From the NCBI GenBank assembly GCA_013285805.1, contig JABDGY010000011.1:1-53080 (forward strand): a stretch of 53,080 nucleotides of DNA, written 5' to 3'. The first letter of the stretch is position 1. Each line of letters opens with the position of its first letter. Positions 17,349 to 38,901 of this stretch are shown here, in pieces. The stretch comes from Bacteroidota bacterium (GTDB lineage: Bacteria; Bacteroidota; Bacteroidia; JABEUT01). Under the pieces are notes generated by a model. It worked only from the letters and a program-made list of their open reading frames with translations. It did no database searches and had not been told where the DNA came from. The position numbers were made by a program, and so were the translations under genes.

Positions 17349-17379
17349 TGGCTCAATAAAACCTGACTGAATTAACCGA

Positions 17380-19376: not shown

Positions 19377-19377
19377 T

Positions 19378-20526
19378 ATGTACACAATGAAAGAAATTGT
19401 GAATAAAGGCTCGCGGAAACTGGAAAGCACGCTTACTGAAAGTGTCGAAAAGACATTGTACTCGAAAAAAGTAAAGGGCGATAATAATGATATACTAATC
19501 GTGAGGCTCGATGGAATAGGCGATTACATACTATTCCGTAACTTTATTGAAGAGCTTTTCAAGGACAACAAGGAGAAGGGCAAACTTGTTTTATGCGGTA
19601 ATATACTATGGAAGGACCTGGCTGAGAAGCTTGACGCCCCATTTATCAGGGAATTTATTTGGGTTGATGTACCAAAGCTGCACCAGGCATCGTATCGCTT
19701 TGCAGTTTACAGGAAATTGCAAAAGGCCAAATGCGGTACGTTGCTTAATCCCGTCTATTCCAGGACGGCTGATGGCGACAAGTTGGCTTTACACAGTGGA
19801 GTAAGAAGAGTTATTGGATACAATGGTGATGAAGTAAATATTAGCCATGAAAGGAAAATAGAGAATGATAAGAGATATAGCGAACTGGTGCCTTCTTCGC
19901 AAAAGAATATGTTTGAATTTTACCGGAACAAATATTTTTTTGAAAAAGTACTGGGTAAGGAATTAAAAATTCAAAAACCGTCTATTAATAGTGATTCGGC
20001 CAGTAGTGAAGAAAAGAAGCATATACTTATTTTTCCCGGTGCAGGGCAGGAATACAGGAAATGGCCGTCAGTTCATTTCGCCCAGCTATGCAAAAGCATT
20101 TCTGAAAAATATAAACTGTCAATAATTATCGGGGGCTCAAAAAGTGATAGTGTTAGTGCAAAAGAAATAATTTCAAAAGCAGGAGTTAGCGTAACGGATA
20201 ATACAGGCAAGTCTGACCTGGTTGATACGATAGAACTGATAAAGAAAGCGGCCTTAGTTATAGCCAATGATACGGGCTTAATGCATCTATCAGTGGCTTT
20301 GAATAGCCCTACTATATGCATAACAAATGGAAATAATTACAAACGGTTTTGCCCATACCCCGATGAATTGAATGCTACGTTAAAGGTTGTTTTGCCCGAT
20401 GAGTTTGAAAACAAAATAAATGATAAACAAGGTGAGGAGAAGTTATTGGGGAAAGAATCGCATTTGGATATGGGATTAATAAAACCGGAGAAAGTATTTA
20501 AAGTTGTAAAAGAAATACTGGGGTAA
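19378..20526 (+). CDS. Glycosyltransferase family 9-like (heptosyltransferase-like)
   Basis: ILIVRLDGIGDYILFRNFIEEL; HILIFPGAGQEYRKWPSVHFAQL; LVIANDTGLMHLSVALNSPTICI. Confidence 0.9.
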   Translation: MYTMKEIVNKGSRKLESTLTESVEKTLYSKKVKGDNNDILIVRLDGIGDYILFRNFIEELFKDNKEKGKLVLCGNILWKDLAEKLDAPFIREFIWVDVPKLHQASYRFAVYRKLQKAKCGTLLNPVYSRTADGDKLALHSGVRRVIGYNGDEVNISHERKIENDKRYSELVPSSQKNMFEFYRNKYFFEKVLGKELKIQKPSINSDSASSEEKKHILIFPGAGQEYRKWPSVHFAQLCKSISEKYKLSIIIGGSKSDSVSAKEIISKAGVSVTDNTGKSDLVDTIELIKKAALVIANDTGLMHLSVALNSPTICITNGNNYKRFCPYPDELNATLKVVLPDEFENKINDKQGEEKLLGKESHLDMGLIKPEKVFKVVKEILG

Positions 20527-21278
20527 TGCCAAAGCTGTCAATCATAACAATTAACTACAACAACAAGGCAGGTCTTGAAAAGACTATTCAAAGTGTTGTG
20601 GGGCAGACATACCGGGACTTTGAATACATTATTATTGATGGTGGCTCAAATGACGGAAGCGTTGAAGTGATAAAGCAATATAGCGAAAAAATAACCAAAT
20701 GGATTTCAGAGAAAGACTCGGGCATTTATAATGCGATGAATAAGGGAATTAGCCTGGCAAGGGGGGAATATTGCCTGTTTTTAAATAGCGGCGATTATTT
20801 ATATAAGGCTAATGTATTAGAGAGTGTTTTTAAGAAATCTTACCAGGAAGATATTATTTACGGCGACATGATTATAGAGCAGGTAAATGGTAAAAGAACC
20901 TTAGGGAAAATGCCTGAAAAGCTATCATTTGAACACATGATACAGGATACTTTGTGGCACCCGGTTTCATTTATAAAACGCGATTTATTTGCTGTTTACG
21001 GGTTGTACCGGGAAGACCTTAAAATCGTGTCGGATTATGATTTTTTGCTCAAGGCGATAGTGGTGAATAAAGTTTCTACCCGGCATATTGCAATGCCTTT
21101 TTCCGTATTTTTGATAGACGGAATGAGTTCAAAGCCTGAGAACAGCGAGATGATAAAACGGGAGAGGAAGATGGTTCAATTGCAATATTTTAAACAGGCG
21201 GAGATAGACGGTGTGCCACCAAAGCAGGAACCCAGTAAGAGTTTTTTATATAAAGTATTGCACCGGCTGAAAGGTTAG
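20526..21278 (+). CDS. Glycosyltransferase family 2
   Basis: MPKLSIITINYNNKAGLEKTIQSVVGQTYRDFEYIIIDGGSNDGSVEVI. Confidence 0.95.
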   Translation: MPKLSIITINYNNKAGLEKTIQSVVGQTYRDFEYIIIDGGSNDGSVEVIKQYSEKITKWISEKDSGIYNAMNKGISLARGEYCLFLNSGDYLYKANVLESVFKKSYQEDIIYGDMIIEQVNGKRTLGKMPEKLSFEHMIQDTLWHPVSFIKRDLFAVYGLYREDLKIVSDYDFLLKAIVVNKVSTRHIAMPFSVFLIDGMSSKPENSEMIKRERKMVQLQYFKQAEIDGVPPKQEPSKSFLYKVLHRLKG

Positions 21279-21279
21279 T

Positions 21280-22125
21280 ATGGAACAAAAAGGAAATGAA
21301 GCTTTAGTTTCTGTTATAGTGCCTTGCTACAACCAGGGCTTATTCCTTAGTGAAGCTTTAGATAGTGTAGCTGCGCAGAATTATTCTGCCTGGGAGTGTA
21401 TAATAGTTGATGATGGTTCTACTGATAATACAAAGACTATTGGAAGTGAATACGAGAGGAAGGACAAACGATTCAAATATATAAGCCAGCCTAACCAGGG
21501 TGTATCCAGGGCCAGAAATAACGGAATAGCTAATAGCCGTGGTAAATATATTCTACCCCTTGATGGCGATGATAAAATAGGGCCACGTTATATTGGAGAG
21601 GCAGTTAAGAGGCTTGAAGACGATGCATTGGTAAAGCTTGTTTACTGCATGGCCGAGACTTTTGGCAATAAGAATGAGAAATTTAATATACATACCTATT
21701 CGTATAAGAGATTGTTAATGGCAAATATGATTTTCTGTACTGCTCTTTTCAGAAAAGATGATTTCCTGAAAACTAAGGGGTATAGTGAAGATATGAGCGA
21801 AGGTTACGAGGATTGGGAGTTCTGGATAGCATTTCTAAATGAGTCTGATAAGGTAGTGCAGCTGCCTGAAGTTTATTTTTACTATAGAATAAGAGATAAT
21901 TCGAGGAACCCGAAAGTAAATGAAGAAGAAAAGCAAAAAAGAATCCGTAAGAGTATCTATACTAAACATAAGGAAATTTATGACCGCTACTTCCCGTTAC
22001 CCGAATTGCTTTTTGAGTATAATAAAGTGAATAACCAGCTGGAAAGCATGGCCGGTTCTTCTGCACTGCGTATTGGCCGCTCTATATTAAAGCCATATTG
22101 GGCAATAAAGCGGTTATTTAAATGA
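21280..22125 (+). CDS. Glycosyltransferase family 2
   Basis: VSVIVPCYNQGLFLSEALDSVAAQNYSAWECIIVDDGSTDNT...GVSRARNNGIANSRGKYILPLDGDD. Confidence 0.95.
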   Translation: MEQKGNEALVSVIVPCYNQGLFLSEALDSVAAQNYSAWECIIVDDGSTDNTKTIGSEYERKDKRFKYISQPNQGVSRARNNGIANSRGKYILPLDGDDKIGPRYIGEAVKRLEDDALVKLVYCMAETFGNKNEKFNIHTYSYKRLLMANMIFCTALFRKDDFLKTKGYSEDMSEGYEDWEFWIAFLNESDKVVQLPEVYFYYRIRDNSRNPKVNEEEKQKRIRKSIYTKHKEIYDRYFPLPELLFEYNKVNNQLESMAGSSALRIGRSILKPYWAIKRLFK

Positions 22126-23003
22126 AATCGATTTGTTTTTTCAGCAGCTATTTTAACGGGGCGAAAATACCGGACTATATTAGGGTATATCTGTTGGAAT
22201 TGTCAAAATATTTTTCCAGGATAATATTTATTACAAATGACAAGGAGATCAATGAAGAAAGTTTAACGTTTTTAACTCAGAATAAAATAGAATTGTTTTT
22301 AGTTGTCAATGAAGGATACGATTTCGGCATGTGGCATAAAGCATTGGCAAAATACGATGTAAGCGGCTATGACAGGCTTGGACTAATTAATGACTCATGC
22401 ATACTTTTCGGAAAGCTGGATACCTTTTTTAAATGGCTCGACAAGGAAAAACCTGATTATAGCGGCTTAACAGACAGTTACCAGATAGAATACCATATAC
22501 AGTCATATTTTCTTATTATAAACAAGGAGACTATCCCTTTTGTAATAGATTATTTCAGGCAAAACGGGATAATTGCAGAACTGAGTGAAGTTATAAGGGT
22601 TTATGAAGTCGGATTAAGCCAGTATCTTGTAAAAATGGGTAAGAACCTAAAAGCAATGTATCATTTTACAAAAGAAACAGACTCAAATAATAATGCCATT
22701 GTGTGGGCCATGCCATTAATTAAAGAGGGGTTCCCGATGGTTAAGAAAAAAATAATTTCAAGAGAATATAAATACAAATACTGGAGGAGCCTGGTTGCAC
22801 GCGGCCATGACCCTTTCCCTGAGCATTATATTAAATTAATAGCTAAAAAAATCAATAACCCCGAAATTGGTAAAATGTTCACCGAAGTGAGGAGCAAGAA
22901 AGGCTTTTTAGGGGAAGTGAGCTTTACAACTATTAGCCTGTTAGCTATTTTGAGCCGTATCAGAAGGAAGCAATTTTATGGTATAAATAATTATCCCCGG
23001 TAA
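22122..23003 (+). CDS. RgpF-like (rhamnan synthesis F) glycan biosynthesis protein
   Basis: KSICFFSSYFNGAKIPDYIRVYLLELSKYFSRIIFITND...NEGYDFGMWHKALAKYDVSGYDRLGLINDSCILFG. Confidence 0.85.
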   Translation: MKSICFFSSYFNGAKIPDYIRVYLLELSKYFSRIIFITNDKEINEESLTFLTQNKIELFLVVNEGYDFGMWHKALAKYDVSGYDRLGLINDSCILFGKLDTFFKWLDKEKPDYSGLTDSYQIEYHIQSYFLIINKETIPFVIDYFRQNGIIAELSEVIRVYEVGLSQYLVKMGKNLKAMYHFTKETDSNNNAIVWAMPLIKEGFPMVKKKIISREYKYKYWRSLVARGHDPFPEHYIKLIAKKINNPEIGKMFTEVRSKKGFLGEVSFTTISLLAILSRIRRKQFYGINNYPR

Positions 23004-23004
23004 T

Positions 23005-24024
23005 ATGCAAGCCCTTGTAAGCGTTTGCATACCTACATACAATGGCCTTCAATACCTGAAGGAGTGCATAGACTCTGCCATAGGGCAAACATATAGTGAC
23101 ATAGAGATTGTAATATGCGATGATTGCTCCACTGATGGAACATGGGATTTGGTCAACACGTATGCAGCCAAGGATAATAGGATTAAGGCATTTCGCAACG
23201 ATAAAAACCTTGGGCTGGTCGGGAACTGGAACAAGTGTATTGGTTTAGTAAAGGGCGAATGGATAAAATTTCTTTTCCAGGACGATTACTTAGACACTGA
23301 TTGCATTGCAGAAATGGTGCAGGGTATTTTGGAAGGCGATAAACTGGTAACATCGGGCAGAAGATTAATTTTTGACCCGGGACTGGATGAAAAGGTGAAG
23401 CAATATTCGTTAAGTCAAACCCTGACGTTCGAAAGGCTGGGTATAAATTCATCGGTTCCTGTGAATATTACTGCTGAGAGGATTTCTGAATTCGCAGTAG
23501 ATAATATATGTATGAATTTTATTGGAGAACCAACAGTAATAATGTTCAGGAAGGATTGCGTGGCTGATGTAGGCTACTTTAATGCCGATATTTCACAATT
23601 ATGCGATTTAGAATACTTTTTAAGAATTGCATCGAAGTACGGGTTGAAATATATTCCACGCCAGCTTACATGGTTCAGGGTGCACAGGCAATCTACGTCG
23701 TCGTCGCATATGAAGAACAAGCTTTTTATGTTGAATTACCTTGATCCTATTATAATTACGCATCAATTATTGTTCGCCCCACAATATGATGATTTAAGGA
23801 AAGCAATTGCGCCACGTCGGAAGGTTAAACTAACTCAGTATTTTCGGGTAAGAACATACGAAGCAAAAAAAGTTGCAATGCTTTCCAATAATGAAGATAT
23901 ACTGAAGTTCAAGGCAATTTCAGGTAAATATCATCAAATTGAAAGCTATGCAAATGGCAGCATCATTACCAAGATTGCCTACTCCCTCATAAAACTGAAA
24001 CGAGCCATAACGAAGAAAGCATAA
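23005..24024 (+). CDS. Glycosyltransferase family 2
   Basis: ALVSVCIPTYNGLQYLKECIDSAIGQTYSDIEIVICDDCSTDGTWDLV. Confidence 0.95.
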   Translation: MQALVSVCIPTYNGLQYLKECIDSAIGQTYSDIEIVICDDCSTDGTWDLVNTYAAKDNRIKAFRNDKNLGLVGNWNKCIGLVKGEWIKFLFQDDYLDTDCIAEMVQGILEGDKLVTSGRRLIFDPGLDEKVKQYSLSQTLTFERLGINSSVPVNITAERISEFAVDNICMNFIGEPTVIMFRKDCVADVGYFNADISQLCDLEYFLRIASKYGLKYIPRQLTWFRVHRQSTSSSHMKNKLFMLNYLDPIIITHQLLFAPQYDDLRKAIAPRRKVKLTQYFRVRTYEAKKVAMLSNNEDILKFKAISGKYHQIESYANGSIITKIAYSLIKLKRAITKKA

Positions 24025-24035
24025 TTTTACAGAAT

Positions 24036-24911
24036 ATGGTTTTCGATTGCTTTACATTCTTCAACGAACTTGATTTACTTGAAATCAGGTTAAATGTTTT
24101 GAACGACGTTGTAGATAAGTTCGTGCTGGTTGAAGCTACCAAAACCCACCAGGGTAAGGATAAGCCGCTTTTCTTTTCTGAAAATAAAGCGCGCTTTTCA
24201 AAATTTAGTGATAAGATAATCCATGTTATAATTAATAAATATCCCCCTAATGATGGAACTTCTGCATGGACACTTGAGCGATACCAGCGCGATATGATTA
24301 TGGAAGGGCTTAAAGACGCAAAAACGGGTGATGTTGTAATGATATCGGACCTTGATGAAATACCCAAGCCCGAATTGGTAAAGGCATATAAAGGAAAGCG
24401 TGGTATAAAGGTTTTCAGGCAGCAGGCGTACTACTACTTTATTAATTGTAAAAACATAAGCGATGGCGACGGTTATGGATGGTGCGGTACGGTTATGGCC
24501 CCATTCAACCCCAAACTGACACCCCAAACGCTACGGTTCGTTAGCATACAATTTGCAGCGCTATATTCGCCCAGGTTTAAAGTAAGGGTATATTACCGGC
24601 TGAAAATAATAAAATGGAAATTCGAACTTCGAAGCAATATATATGCAGTTAAAAATGGCGGCTGGCATTTCAGTTTCCTGGGCGGTGTTGAAATGATTAT
24701 AAAAAAGCTTGAAGCGTTTGCCCATTCAGAATATAATAAAGGTGAATATAAAGACCCGAAGAAGATAGAAGAGGCACTGAATGAGGGTAAAGATATTTTT
24801 GGCAGAAATTTCAGGTATAAGTTTGTGCCCCTTGATAATTCGTTCCCTGAATATATATTGAAGAATAAGGATAAATATAGCCACCTGGTAAAGGAAATTA
24901 CCAACAGGTAA
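24036..24911 (+). CDS. Glycosyltransferase family 17-like (beta-1,4-GlcNAc-transferase type)
   Basis: MVFDCFTFFNELDLLEIRLNVLNDVVDKFVLVEATKTHQGKDKPLFFSENK...DVVMISDLDEIPKPE...WHFSFLGG. Confidence 0.9.
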   Translation: MVFDCFTFFNELDLLEIRLNVLNDVVDKFVLVEATKTHQGKDKPLFFSENKARFSKFSDKIIHVIINKYPPNDGTSAWTLERYQRDMIMEGLKDAKTGDVVMISDLDEIPKPELVKAYKGKRGIKVFRQQAYYYFINCKNISDGDGYGWCGTVMAPFNPKLTPQTLRFVSIQFAALYSPRFKVRVYYRLKIIKWKFELRSNIYAVKNGGWHFSFLGGVEMIIKKLEAFAHSEYNKGEYKDPKKIEEALNEGKDIFGRNFRYKFVPLDNSFPEYILKNKDKYSHLVKEITNR

Positions 24912-24912
24912 A

Positions 24913-25839
24913 ATGCCGATGGATAGCAAGCCTGACATAAGTATAATAATAGTGAGCTATAATGTTTGGGAATACCTTGAAAAATGTATTTCTTCCATTT
25001 TGCTTCAGAAGGAAATTTCATTTGAGATTATTGTGGCAGATAATAATTCCATTGACGGTACAATTCAAAATATCAAACAAAAGTTCCCGCAGGTAAGAAT
25101 AATACACAATACGAAGAATATTGGTTTTTCTGCGGCGAATAATGCCGGGATTAAAGAGGCTAAAGGGGATCTTATTCTTTTACTGAACCCCGATACCGAG
25201 TTAAAGGATACTAACACATTGGCGGAAATGGAGAAGTTTATGGAGTTAAACCCTGAAACAGGAATACTGGCACCCATGTTATTGAATACCGATGGTACAC
25301 TTCAGCCTTCATACTGGAATTTCCCAAAAGTCACCAATTTATTCCTGGAGCTATTCTACCTGCACAGGATAAAGAAAATGGAGCCTAAAACATCTCCTGT
25401 TGAAATAGAGACTGCTTCAGGGGCCGCATTATGTTTCAGTAAGGCCATTTCCGATGGAATAGGGGGGCTAGATGAAAATATGTTCTGGATGGATGATATT
25501 GATTATTGCTTCAGGGTACACAAAACAGGGAGGAAAATAACTTATAACCCTGGTATCAGGGTTATTCACCATGGCGGTAAAAGCACCACAGGAAACTATT
25601 TTATAAGTATACCAAACCAGGTAATAAGTAAGATAAAATACTTCAAAAAACATGGTACATGGCTGCAATATGCCATACAAAACATGCTAAGTTTCATTTT
25701 TATTATTAGCCGATTGATAGTGTTTACAATACTTTCGCCCATGGGCAGCACCTACCGGCAAAAGAGTACTGCTTATTCTGTGGCCTTGAAAGCCTATATA
25801 AAGTATAATTTCAACGGAAACAATGAAATTGTAAGCTAA
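24913..25839 (+). CDS. Glycosyltransferase family 2 (rhamnosyltransferase/WbbL-like)
   Basis: PDISIIIVSYNVWEYLEKCISSILLQKEISFEIIVADNNSIDGT...NIGFSAANNAGIKEAKGDLILLLNPDTEL...MFWMDDIDYCFRVHKTGRKI. Confidence 0.95.
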   Translation: MPMDSKPDISIIIVSYNVWEYLEKCISSILLQKEISFEIIVADNNSIDGTIQNIKQKFPQVRIIHNTKNIGFSAANNAGIKEAKGDLILLLNPDTELKDTNTLAEMEKFMELNPETGILAPMLLNTDGTLQPSYWNFPKVTNLFLELFYLHRIKKMEPKTSPVEIETASGAALCFSKAISDGIGGLDENMFWMDDIDYCFRVHKTGRKITYNPGIRVIHHGGKSTTGNYFISIPNQVISKIKYFKKHGTWLQYAIQNMLSFIFIISRLIVFTILSPMGSTYRQKSTAYSVALKAYIKYNFNGNNEIVS

Positions 25840-27167: not shown

Positions 27168-28883
27168 TCAGCCTTTTATAGTAAAGTAAAAGGTAGCCCC
27201 ATTACCTTCAGTCGATTCAACCCATATTTGTCCTCCATGCCTCTCAATAATGCGTTTGCAAATTGCAAGCCCAATACCGGTGCCTTCATATTGGTCCCAG
27301 CCGTGTAGCCGCTGGAAAATGATAAATACGCGGTCAAAATGCTCCTTTGATATGCCTATGCCATTATCAGAGATAGAAATAAGCCATTCATCAGCTTGCT
27401 TTTTAGCAGATATACGTATTACAGGTGTTCTTTCACCTCTGTATTTAATAGCATTTTCAACCAGGTTCTGAAACAATTGTACCATTTGGTAGTGCTCTGC
27501 TGTTATAGCAGGTAAAACCGTATCTATAATTATTTCGGCGTTATTTTGCTGAATGGTTGTTTGCAGGTTATTCTTTACAAGTACTATTATATCATTAAGG
27601 TCAACATCTACCTGGCTGTCGTTACTGTGCTCAATACGGGAATATATAAGCATATCGTCAATAAGGGTGTTCATGCGCTTGGCTCCTTCAACAGCAAAGT
27701 CAATAAAAATATCCGCGTCATTGTCCAGCTTGTCCTTGTAGCGATCTTCTATCAGTTGAAGGTAACTTGTAATAGTGCGGAGCGGTTCACGCAAATCGTG
27801 CGAAACTGCATGGGCAAATGAACGCGATTCCTTGTTTATTCTTTCAAGTTCCCTGGTCTTTTCAAGTAAACGGCTATTCATCTCTGTCAATTCTTCTTTT
27901 TGCCTTTCTATAGATTGTGTCCGCTCAGTTACCTTAACCTCGAGTTTTGCATTTACTTCTTTTAGCTGCTCTTCCGTTTTTCGTCTTTCATTTAAAGTAG
28001 TACTTAAAAACATAGCTGTTACAGATACTACACATAAAAATGCCTGCAGGGCAATATATGATCCATTAACACTATCTTCAATAAATGGTCCAATGCCTAA
28101 ATATGTAGCATAAATGGCGCTTAGGGAAATACCCAGTATAACCAATGAAATTTGCCTTTGGCTCATACAGAATACACATAGCGAAATAATAAGGAAAATG
28201 AAGAATATCCTGGTTTTATTAATGCCTAATGGGGACCAGTTACCGAATAAAGCAAGCAAGTATAATGTAAGTAAAATAAAAAGCCCTGCCACCTGAATTA
28301 TGGCTGTAGTGTTCCATTCTCTTTTCCTTGGGTTCCACCATGACAGTATAATGGGTGTAAGTATTATTATTCCCGACACATCACCTGTCCACCATGTAAA
28401 CCATACACTGCTATATTCAGGCATGGTAATAATATTATTGAGCAAAAGTGTAGTGGCCCCGACAATGCTGCTGGCAAGGCACATAATAAGTACAGCAATA
28501 AAAAACATGGCAAAATCGCGCGCCACCCCTAACACTTCAAAACTTTTCAGGCGTTTCAAGAGGTAATATCCAATTATTGCTTCAAGGCTATTGCCAATAG
28601 AAATACATAATGACATGAATAGGATTGTAGGTGTACCGGCAACTTTATTTACTTCGAACACAACTACATTGGCAATAAATGCTCCAAGCATAATGCCAGG
28701 CCATATTTCAAACCCGAGTAAAATTAAGGCTGCAAATGCAATGCCCGATGGGGGCCATACAGGTGTTGAATTAGTATGGCCAAGTTGTAAAAGTAAACCT
28801 GTGCGGGCTGCAAAATAATAAACGATTGCCACTGCAGCTATTTTTAACAACCTGCGTGGCAAAGAGTAGTTAGCCGATAACAT
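27168..28883 (-). CDS. MASE1-domain sensor histidine kinase
   Basis: MASE1-like N-terminus (YYFAARTGLLLQLGHTNSTPVWPPSGIAFAALIL), HisKA SHDLREPLRTITSYLQLIEDRYK, HATPase ENAIKY...DNGIGI...GTGIGLAICKRI. Confidence 0.93.
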   Translation of the reverse strand: MLSANYSLPRRLLKIAAVAIVYYFAARTGLLLQLGHTNSTPVWPPSGIAFAALILLGFEIWPGIMLGAFIANVVVFEVNKVAGTPTILFMSLCISIGNSLEAIIGYYLLKRLKSFEVLGVARDFAMFFIAVLIMCLASSIVGATTLLLNNIITMPEYSSVWFTWWTGDVSGIIILTPIILSWWNPRKREWNTTAIIQVAGLFILLTLYLLALFGNWSPLGINKTRIFFIFLIISLCVFCMSQRQISLVILGISLSAIYATYLGIGPFIEDSVNGSYIALQAFLCVVSVTAMFLSTTLNERRKTEEQLKEVNAKLEVKVTERTQSIERQKEELTEMNSRLLEKTRELERINKESRSFAHAVSHDLREPLRTITSYLQLIEDRYKDKLDNDADIFIDFAVEGAKRMNTLIDDMLIYSRIEHSNDSQVDVDLNDIIVLVKNNLQTTIQQNNAEIIIDTVLPAITAEHYQMVQLFQNLVENAIKYRGERTPVIRISAKKQADEWLISISDNGIGISKEHFDRVFIIFQRLHGWDQYEGTGIGLAICKRIIERHGGQIWVESTEGNGATFYFTIKG

Positions 28884-28939: not shown

Positions 28940-29305
28940 TTATGCAGTATCGCTTGTAAATTCTTTAATTTTCAGTACCAATTGCTCATAATCAATCGGT
29001 TTTGAAATGAAATAACTTGCCCCCAGGTTATATGCATTCTGAAGTATACTTTGCTGGTTGTACGATGAAATTAATATAAGTGGCACCTTGCTGTAATAGA
29101 AGTTGCGTAACATGGTAAGAAATGTGAAGCCTGATATACAAGGCATAATAATATCGCTTATTATCAGGTCAATTTTTTCATCAGATAATATTTTCAGAGC
29201 CTCAACAGCATCTGTAGTAGAAGAAACCTCGAATTTCTTGTCTTCCAGTTTTTTTGAAATTGCCATTAGCATCATATTATCATCGTCAACAACAAGGATT
29301 CTCAT
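28940..29305 (-). CDS. Single-domain response regulator (REC only)
   Basis: MRILVVDDDNMMLMAISKKLEDKKF...DLIISDIIMPCISGFTFLTMLR...PLILISS...SYFISKPIDYEQLV. Confidence 0.93.
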   Translation of the reverse strand: MRILVVDDDNMMLMAISKKLEDKKFEVSSTTDAVEALKILSDEKIDLIISDIIMPCISGFTFLTMLRNFYYSKVPLILISSYNQQSILQNAYNLGASYFISKPIDYEQLVLKIKEFTSDTA

Positions 29306-29317
29306 TATATCCTCCTT

Positions 29318-29800
29318 TTAAAGCAACCTGTTAAGTATGTAAAACAGAATAACAATAAGTAGAATAGCTGAATTAATCCATACCAGTTTCCTGTTATTCC
29401 TTTCCATTTCTTTTACTGATTCTATTTCATCGCATATCTGGTCTATCTCTTCCTTTATTTTAAACAATGCAGTTTCACCCTTTGTTATATAGTCGTATGC
29501 TCCATATTTCATCGTGTCATTTATAATATTTGTACTATCCTGGCCTGATAACATTATTATTCGCGTATCAGGATGCGACGCCCTGATTTTATTGAGTACT
29601 TGTACCCCGTTCAGGGAATTACTCAATGCATAATCCAGTACAACAATTTCAGGGTCTTCGTCCATGCTTTTAAGGCATTCCTCACCACTTGAAAACGACT
29701 TTATTGCTGCATTGTCATGTTTCAGGCAATGTTTTAGCGATTCGACAAATATTACATCGTCATCAACAAGAAATATCTTTATTTTATCTGCGGTTTTCAT
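29318..29800 (-). CDS. Tail-anchored response regulator: REC domain plus C-terminal TM helix
   Basis: IFLVDDDVIFVES...SGEECLKSMDEDPEIVVLDYALS...IIMLSGQDS...AYDYITKGE; C-terminus LVWINSAILLIVILFYILNRLL. Confidence 0.9.
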   Translation of the reverse strand: MKTADKIKIFLVDDDVIFVESLKHCLKHDNAAIKSFSSGEECLKSMDEDPEIVVLDYALSNSLNGVQVLNKIRASHPDTRIIMLSGQDSTNIINDTMKYGAYDYITKGETALFKIKEEIDQICDEIESVKEMERNNRKLVWINSAILLIVILFYILNRLL

Positions 29801-29819
29801 CTAGCCCTTATTTTATAAG

Positions 29820-30254
29820 TCACTTCTCTTCCCTCAGCTTATCCAATATCTTTTTTATAGAAGCCAGCGCCTCAATATCTTTTATTACATATGTATATGC
29901 TCCCAGCTTCAATGAATCTACCACACCCTGAAATGTATCTCTGCCCGATAGCATAATGACTACTGTTTGTGGACGGCGTGCTTTAATATCTTTTAAAACA
30001 TCGAGCCCGTTTAGTGTGTTGGGTTTTTCAGGGTTCAGGTTAAAGTCCAATATAATTACATCGGGTGACTGGTGCAGGTTCTCCAGGCATTCTTCCCCCG
30101 AACGGTAGCAAAAAATTTTATGCTCAGAGTTCCTTTGTAAATAAAACCCCAGCGGATAAAGGTAAGAGAGGTCATCATCTACAAGGAATACCGACATCGG
30201 CAGGTTGTCCTTAACCTTTAAAAGTTTCTTTTTATTTTTTACTAATGGTTCCAT
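29820..30254 (-). CDS. Single-domain response regulator (REC only)
   Basis: VFLVDDDLSYLYPLGFYLQ...SGEECLENLHQSPDVIILDFNLNPEKPNTLNGLDVLKDIK...IMLSGRD...YVIKD; ATG at 30254 preferred over the 30284 start. Confidence 0.88.
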   Translation of the reverse strand: MEPLVKNKKKLLKVKDNLPMSVFLVDDDLSYLYPLGFYLQRNSEHKIFCYRSGEECLENLHQSPDVIILDFNLNPEKPNTLNGLDVLKDIKARRPQTVVIMLSGRDTFQGVVDSLKLGAYTYVIKDIEALASIKKILDKLREEK

Positions 30255-30268
30255 GATATAGTTATTTA

Positions 30269-31168
30269 TTAAACAGGCATCCACTGTCCTCCAAGGCCCT
30301 CGTCTTCGTATGGCCCTTCGGAAGGTTTAATGCTTAATACCGGTACCTTTGAATGATTTACCACCTGTTTGGCCAGGCTACCAAGGAAAACCCCGCTAAG
30401 CGTAGATTCATGGTCAGTCATTATTACCAGTAGGTCAGCGCCAACGTATTCTGAATATTTCATGGCCTCTACCGCAATATTGCTGCCCATAATAACCTTG
30501 CGCATATAGGGTAATTCGGCCTTCTTAAAAGCCTGTTCAACCGCATCGAGCTTAATGTTGAATTTCCTGCTATCAATATCTTCATTACTGTCGAGCAGGC
30601 CAAGTATATGCACCTTAGCGCCATAGAATGAAGCCAGCTTAATTACATAGTCAACCTTTTGGCGCGAATGCTGTGAGTTATCAATAGGCATTACAATGTT
30701 TGTAAAGCCAATATTCTTAGCATGCGATTGTACTGTTATTACCGGGCATGTTGCAGCATTTACTGTTTTTTGCGCGTTGCTGCCAATAAAGTATTCTTCA
30801 AAGCCCTTAGCGCCATGGGTACCCATTATAACAATGTCTATTTTGTTCTCGTTAACGGCTTGCTCAATTCCCAGGGCGGGCCTTCCATTGCCCAATAATC
30901 TTGTAACTTCTATGTCATGTTCTTTGTTGATTCTGTCGGAAAGCTTTTCAAGTCTTTTTGTTGCCACTTCCTGTACATCGCCAAGATCTCTTACCATTAT
31001 TTCAGGCTCGTATTCGCTTAGAACATACTCAAATGCTTCAACCACGTGCAGCAGGTAAAGACGCGCTTTACATATGCGTGCCATAAGAATTGCATGCTCT
31101 ATGGCAAGTAGCCCTGTTTCCGAAAAATCGGTAGGTACTAATATTCGTTTTATCTCAAATGTTTTCAT
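30269..31168 (-). CDS. Tandem UspA universal stress protein
   Basis: MKTFEIKRILVPTDFSETGLLAIEHAILMARICKARLYLLHVVEA...IDIVIMGTHGAKGFEEYFIGSNAQKTVNAATCPVITV, then a second Usp-like half; start at 31168 preferred over 31528. Confidence 0.9.
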   Translation of the reverse strand: MKTFEIKRILVPTDFSETGLLAIEHAILMARICKARLYLLHVVEAFEYVLSEYEPEIMVRDLGDVQEVATKRLEKLSDRINKEHDIEVTRLLGNGRPALGIEQAVNENKIDIVIMGTHGAKGFEEYFIGSNAQKTVNAATCPVITVQSHAKNIGFTNIVMPIDNSQHSRQKVDYVIKLASFYGAKVHILGLLDSNEDIDSRKFNIKLDAVEQAFKKAELPYMRKVIMGSNIAVEAMKYSEYVGADLLVIMTDHESTLSGVFLGSLAKQVVNHSKVPVLSIKPSEGPYEDEGLGGQWMPV

Positions 31169-31638
31169 CTTGGTATTGTATTTTAGGGTTCTGTTGCCTT
31201 TAATATCATCCTGATGCTTATAGGACTTGCCTAATTTTAAGGCCGTTATTACTGCGTTAGATGGGTGTTTAGTGTTCTCTGAATTTATAAGGCTGGGCTC
31301 CTGGCGGTTTTTATATTGTCTTGTAATGCCCGGTACAACCTTTTCTCCCTTTTTGTCCGTTGCAGTTACCGCCAGGGGCGTGCCTTCTTTTTCTTCCGCA
31401 ATAACCCTGAACAATTTAACCTTATAAAAAGTAGCATACTCTGATGCACCGCAGCTTTCATATTCATGTGCATTATGTACTCCCGGGTTATGGGAAGGTT
31501 GGGGTCTGTATTTCAGAGAACTTTTCATTGCTTTCCTTACGTATACAAAGTTATGGCTGAATTATGGGTCTTTAGTTGAATTATAGGCAGGGTATATATT
31601 AAAATCGATATAGTTGGCTTTTTAACAGGTTAATATGG

Positions 31639-32145
31639 CTAATGCTTAAGCAAAAAATATGTTGCTATGCAGGCCACCACTACGAAAAGGCTTATCAATA
31701 AGGCAAACGTTACATTGGCCTTATGCCCTTCCTTGTCTTTTTTACGTGCTATAATATTTAAAATAGAATCGGTAACTCTGCTCACCTGGTCAAAGGCATC
31801 GTCTTCTTTTTCTATGTAATCATATACTCCGGCATCAAGAAATTTCTGGGCAATATGCCTATCCTTATTGCCTGTAATTACTATCACAGGCAAGTCAGGG
31901 TTAAGCTTTTTAATTTCAAGTAACGTTTGCACACCATTTATGCCCGGCAGCCCGTAATCAAGTATTACAACATCGGGCTGCATTTCCATATGCTTCAAAC
32001 ACTCTTCGCCCGAGCTGAATTTTGAAATATGTGCAATGGTTTCCTGTGAAAGAAGGTAATCCATCATTAATGAATCCATTTCATTGTCTTCCACAATAAA
32101 AACCCGGTTATCGGCTGTTTCTTTTATATCTTCCTTGTTGTTCAT
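31639..32145 (-). CDS. Tail-anchored response regulator: REC domain plus C-terminal TM helix
   Basis: VFIVEDNEMDSLMMDYLLSQ...SSGEECLKHMEMQPDVVILDYGLPGINGVQTLLEIK...VIVITGN...YIEKED; C-terminus VTFALLISLFVVVACIATYFLLKH. Confidence 0.9.
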   Translation of the reverse strand: MNNKEDIKETADNRVFIVEDNEMDSLMMDYLLSQETIAHISKFSSGEECLKHMEMQPDVVILDYGLPGINGVQTLLEIKKLNPDLPVIVITGNKDRHIAQKFLDAGVYDYIEKEDDAFDQVSRVTDSILNIIARKKDKEGHKANVTFALLISLFVVVACIATYFLLKH

Positions 32146-32186
32146 GATAAACTTTATAAGGAGTAATGGTACTATGAAGGACTCCA

Positions 32187-32702
32187 TCAGGAATGGCCTA
32201 AGTAGAAGTAAATAACATCAATCAGGATTATTGCCAATATGGAAAATCCCAATATATAATTCCACTTCTCGTAGGTTTTGTTTTCCCTGTTCGACCGCAT
32301 TGTATCTATGGCATTCCTTATAATATTTTGCAGCCTTACAAAAGTGCTTTCACTTTTAGCTACATATTCATAGGCACCATTTTTAATTGAGTCTATTGCT
32401 ACCTGTAATTTATCTTGCCCCGATAGCATTATTACCATAATGTCGCGGCCAGCATTTTTCTTTATCTGTTTAAGCACTTTCATTCCATCCATAGCATCAG
32501 GATGCGAATCGTCGCTCAGGTAATAATCAAGTATTACTATATCTGGCTTACCATTAATGCTTCGCAGGCATTCTTCGCCATTGTTAAACATTGCTATATC
32601 TATGCTCGATTTAAATTCCGAGCTAAGTGTGTTTTTCAGTGAAGAGAGGAACATGTTGTCATCGTCAACTAGAAAAACTGAGAAAGAATCTTGTGTTTTC
32701 AT
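32187..32702 (-). CDS. Tail-anchored response regulator: REC domain plus C-terminal TM helix
   Basis: VFLVDDDNMFLSSLKNTL...NGEECLRSINGKPDIVILDYYLSDDSHPDAMDGMKVLKQIK...VIMLSGQD...YVAKSE; C-terminus YILGFSILAIILIDVIYFYLGHS. Confidence 0.9.
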   Translation of the reverse strand: MKTQDSFSVFLVDDDNMFLSSLKNTLSSEFKSSIDIAMFNNGEECLRSINGKPDIVILDYYLSDDSHPDAMDGMKVLKQIKKNAGRDIMVIMLSGQDKLQVAIDSIKNGAYEYVAKSESTFVRLQNIIRNAIDTMRSNRENKTYEKWNYILGFSILAIILIDVIYFYLGHS

Positions 32703-32812: not shown

Positions 32813-35629
32813 CTAGTGTAAATGCTCGATTTCGGCCTTCAATTCACTGATTGCCTCATTGCACACGGTTTTAACATGTGCAATCATCCCGGGAAGTTCT
32901 TCAGTATGAGTTTCGCTGGTTGCATAATCTTCTATCAGCTTAACTTCTTTTTCAATTTCTTTAATTCCCACAAACATTACTGAGGGTTTCATTTTATGGG
33001 CCACTTTGCCCAGGGAGCCCCAATCATGCTCCGCCAGGTGCTTTTCCAGCTTTCCAACGGCTTCGGGGGTTTGTTCTATAAATAGGGTTATCATTTGCTG
33101 TATGAACTCATTGCTGCCATTGGCCAGCTTCTGCAGGTAGCTCAGGTCAATGTGCCTTCCATGCTCATTGCCATTAGTCGCGGGTGTTTCCATAGTAATA
33201 GATATGTCTTGGTTCTGTACATTAAGAACTGAAGCTATTTTCATATAAAGCTTGCGGGTATTGAAAGGCTTTGATATATAATCATTCATTCCTGCCTCTA
33301 TGCACTTTTCTTCTTCACCGGAAATAGCGTGTGCCGTCATGGCTATTATAGGTACACGCGACTTTGGAGGCTGGAGTTTAGTTCTGATGTATCTCGTAGC
33401 CTCATATCCATCCATTTCTGGCAGTTGAATGTCCATTAATACAATATCGTAATTATGTTTCCCTGCTTTTTCAACCGCAATAAGGCCGTTTTCGGCTATA
33501 TCCACGGTCCAGCCCCAATCAGTAAGCACTTTTTTTGCCAGCAGTTGGTTCAAGGCATTATCTTCAACTAACAACACACTCAGTTCTTTTATCGTATTCA
33601 ACTCACTATTCTCAATCTTGCTATCGGGCACTTTGGCTTCAGTGGTGCTCTTCCTGTAAACAAGAGTAAATGAAAATACCGAGCCTTCTTTTTCACGGCT
33701 TTCAACGTTTATCTCTCCTCCCTGTATTTCAATAAGCTGTTTAACTATAGCTAATCCAAGGCCCGTTCCGCCGTATTTTCTTGTAGTGTCGTTTGTGGCC
33801 TGTGTAAAAGCATCGAAAATGGTTGATAATTTATCCTGTGGAATGCCAATACCTGTATCGCTGACAGTAAAGCGAACGCTGACAAAATCGTTTTCTTCAT
33901 TAAGCAGTTCAACACTTACTTTTACTTCGCCTTTTTGTGTAAATTTAATAGCATTACCTACAAGGTTAAGTAATACCTGGTTTAGCCGGGTGGGGTCGCC
34001 AATAAGCCTCTGGGGAATTCTATTGTCAATGGATTTTGAGAGTTTAATTTTTTTCTCAACAGACTTCGGTAACATTAACTCAGTTAATGTTGAGATAATC
34101 TGGGAGACGCTGAATTCAATCCGTTCCAATGGAATTTTACCTGATTGTATTTTAGAGAAATCTAATATATCATTTATTATAACAATAAGGTTCTCACCCG
34201 ATGTATGAATGGCATCAATGTATTGCTGCTGGTCGTTAGATAGAGATGTTTTTAAAAGCAATTCGGTAAACCCTACAATGGCATTCATGGGTGTGCGTAT
34301 TTCATGGCTCATATTGGCCAGGAACTGCTCTTTTACTCTTACTGATTCTTCAAGCTGCTTTTTTGCTTTTGTAAGTTCATTCAACGCCTTGTTGCCCTTC
34401 ATAAGAGAGTATTCGGCTATTTTATTGGCCTGAACAAGATCTTCTTCCATCCTCTTCCTGAGTGTAATATCTGAATCTATGGCAATAATGCGTTTTACCT
34501 TTCCGTTTTCATCCAATACCGGGGTAAGTGTGGTGATAGTCCAATATTCTTTATTGTTTTTTGAATAATTCTTGCTTTCATACGTCACCGGCTCTTTCGT
34601 TTTAATAACTTTCCTAAAGTATTCCATTGATTCTGAAATACCCGTTTCATATCCATGTCTTAGCGCTTCGCCATGGGTATTTTTCAATTCATCTAACGTA
34701 TAACCTGTAAGAATGGTAAAGCCTTCATTTACCCATTCTATTTTGCCATGTGAATCGGTAATAATAACAGAATTGAAGGATTTTGTTGCTGCAGTCGCCA
34801 GGTTCTCCATTTCCTGCTCCTGCATACGTTCCGTTACGTCCTGCCCTGTTCCTACTAATTTAACGGCCTCTCCTTTTTCATTAACTACAGCTTCGCCCTG
34901 GGCATGCAATATTCTTACTGCCCCGTCGGGGCGCATAACCCGGTACGAAAACGTAGTGGGTTTACCTGTTTTAGTTATAAAATCAATAATACTTCTTACA
35001 TTTTCCCTGTCGGCAGTTAAAATATATTCAAGTATTGTTTCCTGCTCAAGCTCCTGGCCTGAGGGAGGCAGGCCATGAATACGGAACAGTTCATCGGACC
35101 AACTTACTTTGGAAGTAGTTAAATCCATTTCCCAGCTACCAATGTGCGCCAGTTTTTGGGCCTCGGCCAGTTTCTGCTTTTCGTTTAACAGGGCAATGGT
35201 CTTTTCTTCCAGCTCGCGCGCTTTCTCCGATATATCCTGAATCAGTTTATGCCGTTCAATACTGTAATTAATTGCCCGTCTTAATTCATTCCCCTTAATT
35301 TTTCCTTTTATCAGGAAATCCTGCGCCCCTAACTTAACTGCATCTATACCCATTGTCTCATCTTCAACCCCTGTAAGCACTATTATAGGGGTATTAGGAT
35401 GTTTCTGATGCAGCTTATTAAATGTATCAAGCCCCCAGCTATCGGGCAGTGAAAGGTCAAGAATAATTACATCAAATATTTTTTTCTCAAGCAATTCTAC
35501 CCCCTTCAATAAACTATCCGTAGTAGAAAGTGCGGCTTTACCGGCATAAACGCCTTTCAGAAAAATCCTTACTAATTCACTATCGGCAGGATTATCTTCA
35601 ATAAGCAATATGTTTACTTTATTATCCAC
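32813..35629 (-). CDS. Hybrid histidine kinase, REC-PAS-PAS-HisKA-HATPase-REC-HPt
   Basis: NILLIEDNPADSELVRIFL (REC), two PAS-like blocks, [40 protein letters not shown], second REC LLVEDNALNQLLAKKVL...VLMDIQLPEMDGYEATRYIR, HPt-like C-terminus LGKVAHKMKPSVMFVGIKEIEKEVKLIE. Confidence 0.93.
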   Translation of the reverse strand: MDNKVNILLIEDNPADSELVRIFLKGVYAGKAALSTTDSLLKGVELLEKKIFDVIILDLSLPDSWGLDTFNKLHQKHPNTPIIVLTGVEDETMGIDAVKLGAQDFLIKGKIKGNELRRAINYSIERHKLIQDISEKARELEEKTIALLNEKQKLAEAQKLAHIGSWEMDLTTSKVSWSDELFRIHGLPPSGQELEQETILEYILTADRENVRSIIDFITKTGKPTTFSYRVMRPDGAVRILHAQGEAVVNEKGEAVKLVGTGQDVTERMQEQEMENLATAATKSFNSVIITDSHGKIEWVNEGFTILTGYTLDELKNTHGEALRHGYETGISESMEYFRKVIKTKEPVTYESKNYSKNNKEYWTITTLTPVLDENGKVKRIIAIDSDITLRKRMEEDLVQANKIAEYSLMKGNKALNELTKAKKQLEESVRVKEQFLANMSHEIRTPMNAIVGFTELLLKTSLSNDQQQYIDAIHTSGENLIVIINDILDFSKIQSGKIPLERIEFSVSQIISTLTELMLPKSVEKKIKLSKSIDNRIPQRLIGDPTRLNQVLLNLVGNAIKFTQKGEVKVSVELLNEENDFVSVRFTVSDTGIGIPQDKLSTIFDAFTQATNDTTRKYGGTGLGLAIVKQLIEIQGGEINVESREKEGSVFSFTLVYRKSTTEAKVPDSKIENSELNTIKELSVLLVEDNALNQLLAKKVLTDWGWTVDIAENGLIAVEKAGKHNYDIVLMDIQLPEMDGYEATRYIRTKLQPPKSRVPIIAMTAHAISGEEEKCIEAGMNDYISKPFNTRKLYMKIASVLNVQNQDISITMETPATNGNEHGRHIDLSYLQKLANGSNEFIQQMITLFIEQTPEAVGKLEKHLAEHDWGSLGKVAHKMKPSVMFVGIKEIEKEVKLIEDYATSETHTEELPGMIAHVKTVCNEAISELKAEIEHLH

Positions 35630-35632
35630 GAC

Positions 35633-37570
35633 TTAAGTTACTTTAATAGTGAAATAGAATGCCGAGCCTTTTTCCGGCTCCGATTCTACCCATATTTTGC
35701 CGCCATGCCGTTCTACTATTTTTTTACAAATGCTAAGGCCAATACCTGTTCCGGGGTACTTCTCCCTGCCATTTAACCTCTGAAATATTACAAAAATCTT
35801 ATCTGAATACTCTTTGGGTATTCCAATTCCATTATCCTTTACAGAAAAAATAAATTCTCCGTTTTTTCTTTCACTTCCAATACGTATTTCCGGTTTTTTA
35901 CTACCCCGGAACTTCATGGCATTACCAATAAGATTTTGAAACAGCTGGCCAATAAGCACAGTATCCCCATATATTTCCGGCATCTTCTTATATGAAATAA
36001 TAGCGCCCGATTCTTCAATCTGCTCTTTCATATCGTGCTTTATTTCATCCAATACATCGGTAAGGTTAATCCATTCAAAAGGCTTTATCCTGTTTACCCT
36101 TGAATATTCAAGCAAACTGTTAATCAGTTGCCGCATTCGTTTGCTACCATCAACAGCAAAATCAATAAATTCATTAGCGTCTTCATCCAACTTATCTTTA
36201 TAACGCGATGCCAGCAATTGCACATAACTACTCACTGTTCTTAACGGTTCCTGCAAGTCGTGTGAGGCCACATAGGCAAACTGCTCCAGCTCGGTATTAG
36301 AGCGCATAAGCTCGTGGGTTTTTCTTTCAAGTTCAAGTTTTGCATTACGCATCTCGGTTACATCTTCAGAAATGCCAAGTAAATACACTGGATGCCCCGA
36401 TGAATTAAGTATAGGTATTTTGCGTGTATGCAACCAGCGTCTTCCATTCTTTGTGTCAATAGGCTCTTCGGGGATATCCACTATATCCAGCTGGCTTAAA
36501 ACAGCCCTGTCTTTTCCGGTAAAGAAATCTGCCTGTTCTTTAGGAAAGAAGTCATGGTCGTTTTTACCAAGGAGTTCTGCCTTCGGAGTTCCCAGTAACC
36601 GTTCCCCTGCTTTATTGAAGCGGACAAAATTGAGGGATTCAGCATCTTTAACAAAAACCATGTTTGGAATATTTTCCAGTACGGAATCCAGGAAATTGTT
36701 AATAGCTTTCAGGTCATCTGCTGATTGCTTCTGTTTTGTAATATCACGTGTAAGTTTCGAAAAGCCTTTTAGCTTCTTTTTTTCATCGTACAAGGCAGTG
36801 TATATTATGTTTGCCCAAAACTTCTCTCCGTTTTTTCTTACTCTCCACCCTTCCGTTTCAAGGTGCCCATTTTCACCCGCTATTTTCAAATTGCTTTCGG
36901 GTATACCTTTTTTTATGTCATCATTGGTATAGAATACTGATATATATTTCCCCAATATTTCATCGGCTTTATACCCCTTAATATTTTCCGCTCCTTCATT
37001 CCAGCTTTGCACATGGCCATCAGGCGTAATCATAAAAATGGCATAATCCTTAATATTCTGAACCATCAGCCTGAATTTCTCTTCGCTTTCTTTCAATTTC
37101 TCCTCAGTTTCTTTCTGCACCTTAAAAAGCATCTGGATGGCGGTATCCTGCGCCAGGGTATAAAGGCCTTCCAGTTCCTCGGTTATAGTAATAGCTTCTC
37201 CCGAGCTCTTTACAAAATCGGGCAGAAGGTGAAATATTGCGGTTTTTTGTGCGGCATAAATAAGCACAAGGTCGGAAGGATGAATTTCATCGCGCCCTAT
37301 TCCCGGCACCTTATTTTCCGCCCATAGTTTAAGGCTTGCCCTGGTATTACTTATCATGGTTCCGTCCTGTACTGATGAAAGAAATTTCGCCAGGCTATCC
37401 ATAGTCATTTTAAACGTGGTCTCATCGTAAAGGTTTTTTATCATTCCTTTTTCAATAACCCGCTTAACAATAGGGATATCCATTGATCCTATCTTATCAA
37501 TATAGAACTTCGTCAGGTCTTTCAGCCGCTCATCGCGCAGGTATCTTACAAAATCCTCAAGGGTTTTCAT
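35633..37570 (-). CDS. Cytoplasmic PAS-PAS histidine kinase with RsbRD-like helical N-terminal domain
   Basis: N-terminal about 170-aa helical region, PAS blocks (MVQNIKDYAIFMITPDGHVQSWNEGAENIKGYKADEILGK), HisKA ASHDLQEPLRTVSSYVQLLASRYKDK, HATPase GTGIGLSICKKIVERHGGKIWVESEPEKGSAFYFTI. Confidence 0.92.
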   Translation of the reverse strand: MKTLEDFVRYLRDERLKDLTKFYIDKIGSMDIPIVKRVIEKGMIKNLYDETTFKMTMDSLAKFLSSVQDGTMISNTRASLKLWAENKVPGIGRDEIHPSDLVLIYAAQKTAIFHLLPDFVKSSGEAITITEELEGLYTLAQDTAIQMLFKVQKETEEKLKESEEKFRLMVQNIKDYAIFMITPDGHVQSWNEGAENIKGYKADEILGKYISVFYTNDDIKKGIPESNLKIAGENGHLETEGWRVRKNGEKFWANIIYTALYDEKKKLKGFSKLTRDITKQKQSADDLKAINNFLDSVLENIPNMVFVKDAESLNFVRFNKAGERLLGTPKAELLGKNDHDFFPKEQADFFTGKDRAVLSQLDIVDIPEEPIDTKNGRRWLHTRKIPILNSSGHPVYLLGISEDVTEMRNAKLELERKTHELMRSNTELEQFAYVASHDLQEPLRTVSSYVQLLASRYKDKLDEDANEFIDFAVDGSKRMRQLINSLLEYSRVNRIKPFEWINLTDVLDEIKHDMKEQIEESGAIISYKKMPEIYGDTVLIGQLFQNLIGNAMKFRGSKKPEIRIGSERKNGEFIFSVKDNGIGIPKEYSDKIFVIFQRLNGREKYPGTGIGLSICKKIVERHGGKIWVESEPEKGSAFYFTIKVT

Positions 37571-37576: not shown

Positions 37577-38011
37577 TTATTCTTCCTTTCTGGGTAATTT
37601 TACAATGGTAAGCCAGAACTCTTCTATTGACCTTACAACATTAATAAACTGGCTAAGGTCAACCGGCTTCATTATATAACAATTGGCATGATTGGCGTAA
37701 GTATTAAGAATATCCTGTTCAGCCGCTGATGTTGTAAGTATAATTACCGGAATAAATTTGAGGACAGGGTCGCTTTTAATTTCTGCCAGCACTTCACGTC
37801 CGTCCTTTTTAGGAAGGTTCAGGTCCAATAAAACAAGATCGGGCGTTTCCACTTCGGCATATTTACCAAGTTTTCTTAAATAGATAAGTGCATCTTCGCC
37901 ATCTGTCGCAATATTCAGTGTATTACGAATACGTCCTTCCTTAAACACTTCTTTAGTAAGCCGTATATCAGCAGGGTTATCTTCAACCAGTAGAATATTA
38001 ATTGAATTCAT
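37577..38011 (-). CDS. Single-domain response regulator (Rcp1/CheY-like)
   Basis: [44 protein letters not shown]...[41 protein letters not shown] at 38011 preferred. Confidence 0.92.
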
Positions 38012-38214
38012 GGGGTTATAATTATTCGTAATTCTTTCGTATACAGTGAGTTCATTCTTAGTAGTGTTCTTTTCTGCCATCAGTTTGCTTGTATTAATGA
38101 AGAATATGGGCACATCACTAAGTTAGCCTTAGGAAGCCTATTTGCAGGGGCCAATTCGGTGAACAGGTTAAATAAAGCAGTGAACTGAAGGAAAATGTAG
38201 ACTAAAAAATAGGC

Positions 38215-38901
38215 CTATTGTAATGGGTTCAGGCGCTTAATAAAATTCTCTTTATACAGGGCCCCAACAGGAATTGATACATCGTTTATATATATGGTAG
38301 TATCTTCAACCACCTTCACATTATCAAGTTGCACTATATAGGAACGGTGAACACGTACAAATTTATCATCGGGTAATTTGCTTTCCACAGCCTTAAGAGT
38401 AGAGTGAAGTATAAAACGCTGATCCCTGGTATGTATAGTAATATAATCGCCAAGGGCTTCAATCCATAATATTTCTTTAACCGGTACCTTAGTTAATACC
38501 GAATCCTTTTTTATAAAAAAATATTCTGTTGAGGTAGTAAGCTCTTTTATGTCGGTGCTTTCTTTTACTTTACCCACCGCTTTAAGGAACCTTGGCAATG
38601 CAACAGGTTTTACAATGTAGTCAACCACGTTTAGCTCAAATGCGTCAATGGCGTATTCCTTGTGGGTTGTAGTAAGTATTACTGCCGGCCTGTTGTCGAG
38701 GCTTCTCAGCATGTCTATACCGCTCATCTGCGGCATTTCTATGTCAAGAAATATAAGATCTACGTTTTCATTTTTTAAAACAGCTATAGCTTCCAAAGGA
38801 TTTTTGCACTCTTTTACAATGTTAAGGTGCGCTACCTGTTTTGCTAATTGTGCAATTATCTTCCTGGAAGCATCGTCATCATCAACAATTATGCAGTTCA
38901 T
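38215..38901 (-). CDS. LytTR-family DNA-binding response regulator
   Basis: REC (IVDDDDASRKIIAQL...LIFLDIEMPQMSGIDML) plus LytTR (ILWIEALGDYITIHTRDQRFILHSTLKAVESKLPDDKFVRVHRSYIVQLDNV). Confidence 0.95.
   Translation of the reverse strand: MNCIIVDDDDASRKIIAQLAKQVAHLNIVKECKNPLEAIAVLKNENVDLIFLDIEMPQMSGIDMLRSLDNRPAVILTTTHKEYAIDAFELNVVDYIVKPVALPRFLKAVGKVKESTDIKELTTSTEYFFIKKDSVLTKVPVKEILWIEALGDYITIHTRDQRFILHSTLKAVESKLPDDKFVRVHRSYIVQLDNVKVVEDTTIYINDVSIPVGALYKENFIKRLNPLQ

Follow-up and report, generated by a model that had tools for sequence, protein, structure and literature searches.

Predicted tail-anchored single-domain response regulators of Bacteroidota as candidate membrane-acting outputs of HPt phosphorelays

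INTRODUCTION

Single-domain response regulators such as Spo0F, CheY and DivK are soluble proteins, and regulators of this kind often have no known output. Here, we describe relatives that consist of a receiver (REC) domain followed by a predicted C-terminal membrane anchor, hereafter termed REC-TM (TM, transmembrane) proteins. Three of them are encoded in the window, the whole 53,080-nucleotide stretch that was analysed, which is contig 11 (JABDGY010000011.1) of a 2.05-Mb, 60% complete genome of a Bacteroidota bacterium (GenBank assembly GCA_013285805.1). We conclude that the REC-TM proteins are a real, conserved and functional-looking variant of single-domain response regulators, assembled from ordinary parts in an unusual combination, and that the group probably carries a signal straight to membrane machinery, for example that of sugar-polymer synthesis, instead of to genes. 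As far as we have searched, the variant is undescribed: no paper on membrane-anchored or membrane-bound response regulators was found under those names among the open-access papers searched. The initial annotation of the window had nominated these genes as its best candidate for an undescribed system.

Like Spo0F, CheY and DivK, the REC-TM proteins are stand-alone receivers with a full active site; unlike them, they carry a C-terminal anchor, predicted to be continuous with helix α5, and the soluble Spo0F/CheY type is further set apart by the hydrophobic C-terminal helix and positive-inside pattern read from the sequences of 53 REC-TM proteins. NtrC/NtrX-type receivers are among the nearest by both sequence and fold; however, the REC-TM proteins have no AAA+ or DNA-binding domain. 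Related REC domains also occur in soluble Bacteroidota proteins of ∼125-145 residues encoded just downstream of hybrid kinases that end in a histidine phosphotransfer (HPt) domain (for example, L120, L122 and L165; L and G numbers denote loci and genomes, respectively). These share a neighbour with the REC-TM genes, but lack the anchor, their sequence finishing soon after the REC domain or with a polar C-terminal stretch. In L165, CheR and CheB genes accompany the gene of the soluble form.

A functional analogy, rather than membership of the same system, is offered by Myxococcus xanthus EpsW, a soluble REC protein whose phosphorylated form switches on the phosphoglycosyl transferase EpsZ at the post-translational level (PMC12802240); the same paper notes small transferases with a fused receiver domain. 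As we propose for REC-TM proteins, EpsW is a REC-only, phospho-Asp-dependent regulator of polysaccharide biosynthesis at the membrane that acts without transcription and is encoded in an exopolysaccharide (EPS) locus. The REC-TM proteins differ in having their own membrane anchor and in their proposed donor, an HPt domain as against the Dif chemosensory kinase of EpsW, whereas the enzyme linked to them is of the polytopic WecA type (PF00953) and EpsZ is a large monotopic protein. Moreover, EpsW has an EPS neighbour and the window REC-TM genes do not; it is the REC-TM genes of L059, L074, L078, L083 and L092 that lie beside an initiating phosphoglycosyl transferase.

RESULTS AND DISCUSSION

Receiver domain and predicted membrane anchor

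The initial annotation had picked out four REC open reading frames (ORFs) sharing a GEECL segment, three of them with a hydrophobic C-terminal helix. All four are on the minus strand, match Pfam Response_reg and contain GEECL (KD19, best 19-residue Kyte-Doolittle window):

32187-32702, minus strand: REC-TM protein of 171 aa, first of a tandem pair; Pfam E 8.4e-17, KD19 2.45
31639-32187, minus strand: REC-TM protein, second of the tandem pair, 182 aa from 32187 or 168 aa from 32145; Pfam E 2.1e-22, KD19 2.70
29820-30284, minus strand: soluble REC-only protein with GEECL and no anchor, 144 aa from 30254 or 154 aa from 30284; Pfam E 1.6e-15, KD19 at most 0.80
29318-29800, minus strand: REC-TM protein of 160 aa with an anchored ortholog in L112; Pfam E 2.4e-20, KD19 2.34

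The three hydrophobic helices are borne out, the best windows finishing 2-3 residues from the C-terminus. Composition-preserving shuffles attain the observed KD19 in only 4 of 2000 cases for the 31639 protein and 12 of 2000 for 32187-32702; for 29318-29800 the figure is 57 of 2000, and the evidence for an anchor from this sequence taken alone is modest. That doubt is removed by the retention of the anchor in the orthologs from G004, G006 and G010 and across all 53 distinct proteins. The three proteins have no output domain other than REC: PF00072 is the only match above cut-off, and the remainder is linker and anchor. Among the best NCBIfam matches of every REC-TM protein tested, no named family scored above its cut-off, and fold searches returned only generic receivers (VicR, NtrC1, NtrX, WspR and RssB), none of them anchored.

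AlphaFold2 models, built with alignments of window and locus proteins, predict that α5, linker and anchor form one continuous helix, spanning 51 residues (120-170; mean pLDDT 93.6) in 32187-32702 and residues 117-167 (mean pLDDT 92.7) in the 31639 protein. The anchor of 32187-32702 contains an acidic residue (LIDVIYFYL), and the Asp of this ILID/LLID segment is kept in all four congeneric sequences; a mid-membrane Asp would be unusual for a single anchor and hints at a specific contact.

A conserved set in Bacteroidota

The full set comprises 53 distinct REC-only proteins, the three of the window included, drawn from congeners and from 80 genome loci; each has a C-terminal helix with a hydropathy of at least 1.9, situated beyond the REC domain and with a core devoid of paired polar residues. 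The acidic pair, the Ser/Thr and the Lys are present in 53/53 and the phospho-Asp in 52/53, and the earlier claim that the acidic pocket, Asp, Thr/Ser and Lys of the window proteins are intact is upheld by their PF00072 matches and by the retention of these residues in the relatives. The anchor cores run to 19-28 residues free of K, R, E, N and Q, with at most an Asp or His, and the tails past the core measure 0-21 residues. In the 12 residues ahead of the anchor, K/R outnumber D/E by 205 to 66, a positive-inside pattern that would fit an N-in, C-out tail anchor, with the caveat that the short tails too are richer in Lys/Arg than in acidic residues (52 versus 13). The proteins thus conform to the tail-anchored class on hydropathy, tail length and charge, the properties compared.

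When 297 Bacteroidota genomes were searched at E ≤ 1e-22, only a few matches extended across the anchor, a lower bound given that 12 candidates per genome were scored; REC-TM proteins were confirmed after fetching in G027, G174, G218 and G268. Most of the weaker whole-genome matches are long ORFs of ∼450-540 codons, and one of that type (L043:8465) is a sigma-54 regulator. Within the genus, REC-TM proteins are found in 7 of 11 mostly incomplete genomes (G000, G002, G004, G006, G007, G009 and G010).

Linkage to HPt domains

The linkage to HPt domains points to what may feed the REC-TM proteins. In the window, the gene preceding the tandem pair is a candidate phosphodonor:

32813-35629, minus strand: hybrid kinase, REC-PAS-PAS-HisKA-HATPase-REC-HPt (Pfam and motifs), which may donate phosphate via its C-terminal HPt domain

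Its SHEIRT and MDIQLP motifs are intact, as is the HPt motif AHKMKPS, which starts at residue 877 and holds the HPt His. The compared loci had been fetched by REC similarity, with HPt forming no part of the search, and the short ORFs beside their REC-TM genes, at first clustered with kinases, encode HPt proteins (Pfam Hpt, E 1e-5 to 3e-11). An HPt protein or an HPt-ending hybrid kinase lies directly upstream on the same strand for 11 of 45 REC-TM genes or runs: the preceding gene is an HPt-ending hybrid kinase in the window, L112 and L113, a free HPt protein in L033, L040, L046, L049, L075, L085 and L115, and a 600-aa protein ending in HPt in L119. For random genes drawn from these loci, the count averaged 0.85 and peaked at 6, none of 20000 draws reaching 11, in a comparison that is uncorrected for phylogeny and includes several congeneric loci. 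The corresponding counts are 12 of 1045 unlabelled genes and 42 of 106 soluble REC genes of the fetched loci; since soluble RECs follow HPt even more often, the REC-TM proteins would be the membrane-tethered form of an HPt-linked type of single-domain regulator, an HPt-to-REC output that is common in Bacteroidota. In G174 and G218, hybrid kinases follow the REC-TM gene on the same strand.

The link to neighbouring kinases drawn in the initial annotation is therefore conserved, more exactly as a link to HPt domains, and the gene order expected for the terminal receiver of a histidine kinase (HK)-REC-HPt phosphorelay is seen both at kinase 32813-35629 and in the 11 of 45 cases overall, but the association is not universal, 22 of 38 REC-TM loci having an HPt within four genes.

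Candidate membrane targets

An inner-membrane anchor on a receiver directs the search for its target towards membrane proteins. In five loci (L059, L074, L078, L083 and L092), which form one clade mostly labelled Bacteroidales, the start of the REC-TM gene overlaps the end of a Glycos_transf_4 (PF00953)/WecA-like gene by 13-52 bases. The best NCBIfam match of the L074 gene is WecA (E 1.5e-46, under the cut-off of the model). These PF00953-type genes are surrounded by genes for glycosyltransferases and for Wza-like (export) and Wzc-like proteins, as assigned by Pfam for members of the L074 and L059 clusters and by clustering for the remaining loci. In L043, from another clade, the REC-TM gene lies 13 bases ahead of Wza-like and Wzc-like genes, and in L163 a glycosyltransferase precedes it. 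For one Bacteroidales lineage, this gene order makes the initiating phosphoglycosyl transferase of the EPS cluster the best candidate target; the WecA-like product of the overlapped gene is one candidate enzyme, and its control by a REC-TM protein would carry a mode of regulation reported from Myxococcus in 2025 over to another enzyme class and another phylum.

Separately, REC-TM genes of L034, L038, L079 and L111 (paired in tandem in all of these but L079) are found beside glucodextranase/GH15, TPR and GH26 genes, with no kinase.

Age of the array

The initial annotation had read the GEECL genes as a local paralogous expansion, and this is only half right: the genes are paralogs, but the expansion is not recent. 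In a tree of 84 REC cores, built from few alignment columns, the three window REC-TM proteins fall in three places, each with a positional ortholog from G004, G006 or G010 (SH-aLRT 98-99). The 32187 and 29318 types belong to one group of 14, with genes of L032, L033, L037, L040 and L034/L038/L111, and the 31639 type to a group of 10, with genes of L053, L033, L040, L034, L111, L038 and L079; support for the deeper joins is moderate (85-94). Furthermore, the order of all 11 genes of the run that contains the array is identical in G004 (L112). Recent local duplication is ruled out by tree and synteny together. In L034, L038 and L111, the 32187 and 31639 types recur in tandem, with TPR and GH15 genes as neighbours and no kinase, and the pair is therefore older than the genus, by some distance, and able to exist apart from kinases.

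As a marker of the local set, GEECL can also be discarded. GEEAL-like strings are common in REC domains, and the GEEC string occurs in 19 of 57 REC-TM and 24 of 109 soluble REC proteins of the fetched loci; being a subfamily trait shared with soluble RECs, it is weak evidence for local paralogy. The anchor label requires 9 changes on the REC tree, 2 of them forced by starred branches, and may have been gained or lost repeatedly in REC evolution.

Proposed mechanism and alternatives

We propose that the REC-TM proteins are HPt-fed effectors acting at the membrane, the tail-anchored output end of an HK-REC-HPt phosphorelay; on the evidence of sequence and gene order, we consider this somewhat probable. 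Within kinase 32813-35629, phosphate would pass from the HisKA His to the REC Asp and on to the HPt His, and from there, presumably in that direction, to the REC-TM Asp. Phosphorylation would alter the α4-β5-α5 face and, because α5 is predicted to run straight into the linker and membrane helix, the change may affect how REC-TM proteins pair, either with copies of themselves or with the tandem partner, or how they contact an inner-membrane protein nearby. A membrane machine would then be controlled post-translationally, and transcription would not be the output. Where the initial annotation had suggested a sink, relay or scaffold, the genomic context favours a terminal acceptor, from the position after HPt, and the overlap with the gene of a membrane phosphoglycosyl transferase in EPS clusters suggests an effector on a membrane protein; some copies may act as sinks. 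More tentatively, the proposal might be extended to a Bacteroidota-wide tail-anchored class in which an HPt-fed REC transmits or dimerizes through its continuous helix to turn a membrane enzyme on or off (the WecA-like initiating phosphoglycosyl transferase in the case of EPS loci), with tandem paralogs fanning one relay out to several targets.

Several observations weigh against the effector proposal. No HPt lies within four genes in 16 of 38 REC-TM loci, and many lack any nearby HPt or kinase; a nearby kinase is missing for the pair in L034/L038/L111 and for single genes in L052, L118 and L159. The EPS association is essentially that of one clade plus L043 and the single glycosyltransferase neighbour in L163. 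In the window, the array does not adjoin a phosphoglycosyl transferase, and the polysaccharide genes at 15268-25839 are on the other strand; in L112, no polysaccharide genes were recognized next to the array. In addition, hydropathy and charge, rather than a trained topology predictor, were the basis for calling the tail anchors.

The leading alternative, which we nonetheless regard as unlikely, is that REC-TM and other REC proteins compete for phosphate at the membrane as a sink or buffer, shaping the true output (for example, that of the LytTR regulator at 38215-38901) with no effector of their own. The window run would suit such a role, with several RECs and one HPt-ending kinase, a LytTR regulator that keeps its place in L112, and paralogs devoid of any output domain. 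However, a sink has no need of a membrane anchor, and orphan REC-TM pairs persist with no kinase nearby (L034, L038 and L111); moreover, the paralogs are old and separately conserved, and details of the anchor, such as the ILID/LLID Asp (4/4 congeneric sequences), look like specific contacts.

Rather doubtful, too, is a membrane scaffold, whereby tethered RECs would recruit HPt or kinase, soluble RECs and universal stress protein (Usp) to the membrane in a phosphorylation-dependent manner, localization itself being the output. The hybrid kinase beside the array has no membrane domain family, so that recruitment would be needed, and the grouping of REC-TM, soluble REC and Usp genes in the window is shared by L112 and, with other REC-TM genes, by L033 and L040; outside the genus, however, Usp adjoins REC-TM only in L033/L040, and is no general partner. 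Finally, that these are ordinary soluble CheY/Spo0F-like RECs whose hydrophobic C-terminal helix packs on a partner protein outside the membrane is very improbable: single-protein hydropathy is not extreme, as the shuffles of 29318-29800 illustrate, but 53 varied proteins share 19-28-residue cores without K, R, E, N or Q and a strong positive charge on their N-terminal side.

Other genes of the locus

The array belongs to a minus-strand run of 11 ORFs (38901 to 27168) with intergenic gaps of ≤110 bases by listed coordinates. The order, 5' to 3', is LytTR regulator, REC, PAS kinase, hybrid kinase, REC-TM, REC-TM, Usp, REC, REC-TM, REC and MASE1 kinase, and the REC-only proteins are thus the three REC-TM and the soluble 29820-30284, 28940-29305 and 37577-38113. 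The members not listed above are as follows:

38215-38901, minus strand: REC-LytTR DNA-binding response regulator (Pfam)
37577-38113, minus strand: REC-only response regulator of 178 aa, in a separate clade of the tree; Pfam E 4.1e-18
35633-37570, minus strand: PAS-PAS histidine kinase (Pfam; SHDL motif)
30269-31528, minus strand: double Usp with a conserved start Met at 31168 (Pfam Usp, two stretches; alignment with L033, L040 and L112)
28940-29305, minus strand: soluble CheY-like REC of 121 aa, without GEECL or anchor, in a separate clade; Pfam E 2.7e-27
27168-28883, minus strand: MASE1 histidine kinase at the end of the run (Pfam)

Start sites in the array are uncertain. For ORF 31639, the alternative start at 32187 gives a 1-base overlap with the preceding stop codon, and the extension is kept in two congeners (L112 and L113). 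The conserved Usp start at 31168 would make the true gap ahead of this gene ∼470 bases; the ∼120 codons ahead of the conserved Met, which are partly alike in L112 and missing in L033/L040, represent a leader region or, alternatively, extend the protein at its N-terminus. A scan for Bacteroidota-type promoter patterns gave fewer matches than chance and was uninformative.

A coiled-coil lipoprotein at 42696-43604 (minus strand; no Pfam match) was considered as a periplasmic partner and rejected. In both L114 and L040, homologs adjoin REC-TM genes, but every one of the 11 genomes of the genus carries 1-5 copies of the family, including G001 and G008, where the REC-TM profile found nothing; the family is therefore not specific to REC-TM. 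Its homologs are sometimes seen beside HPt-kinase/REC loci (L114, L040, L120, L122 and L123).

Elsewhere in the window, the plus-strand genes at 15268-25839 form a polysaccharide cluster of the ABC-transporter type (ABC2 membrane protein, ABC ATPase and glycosyltransferases, assigned by Pfam or by eye), which adjoins two tRNA genes and the REC array, the latter on the opposite strand, and 9994-12450 (plus strand) encodes a TPR protein with a C-terminal SpoIIE phosphatase domain.

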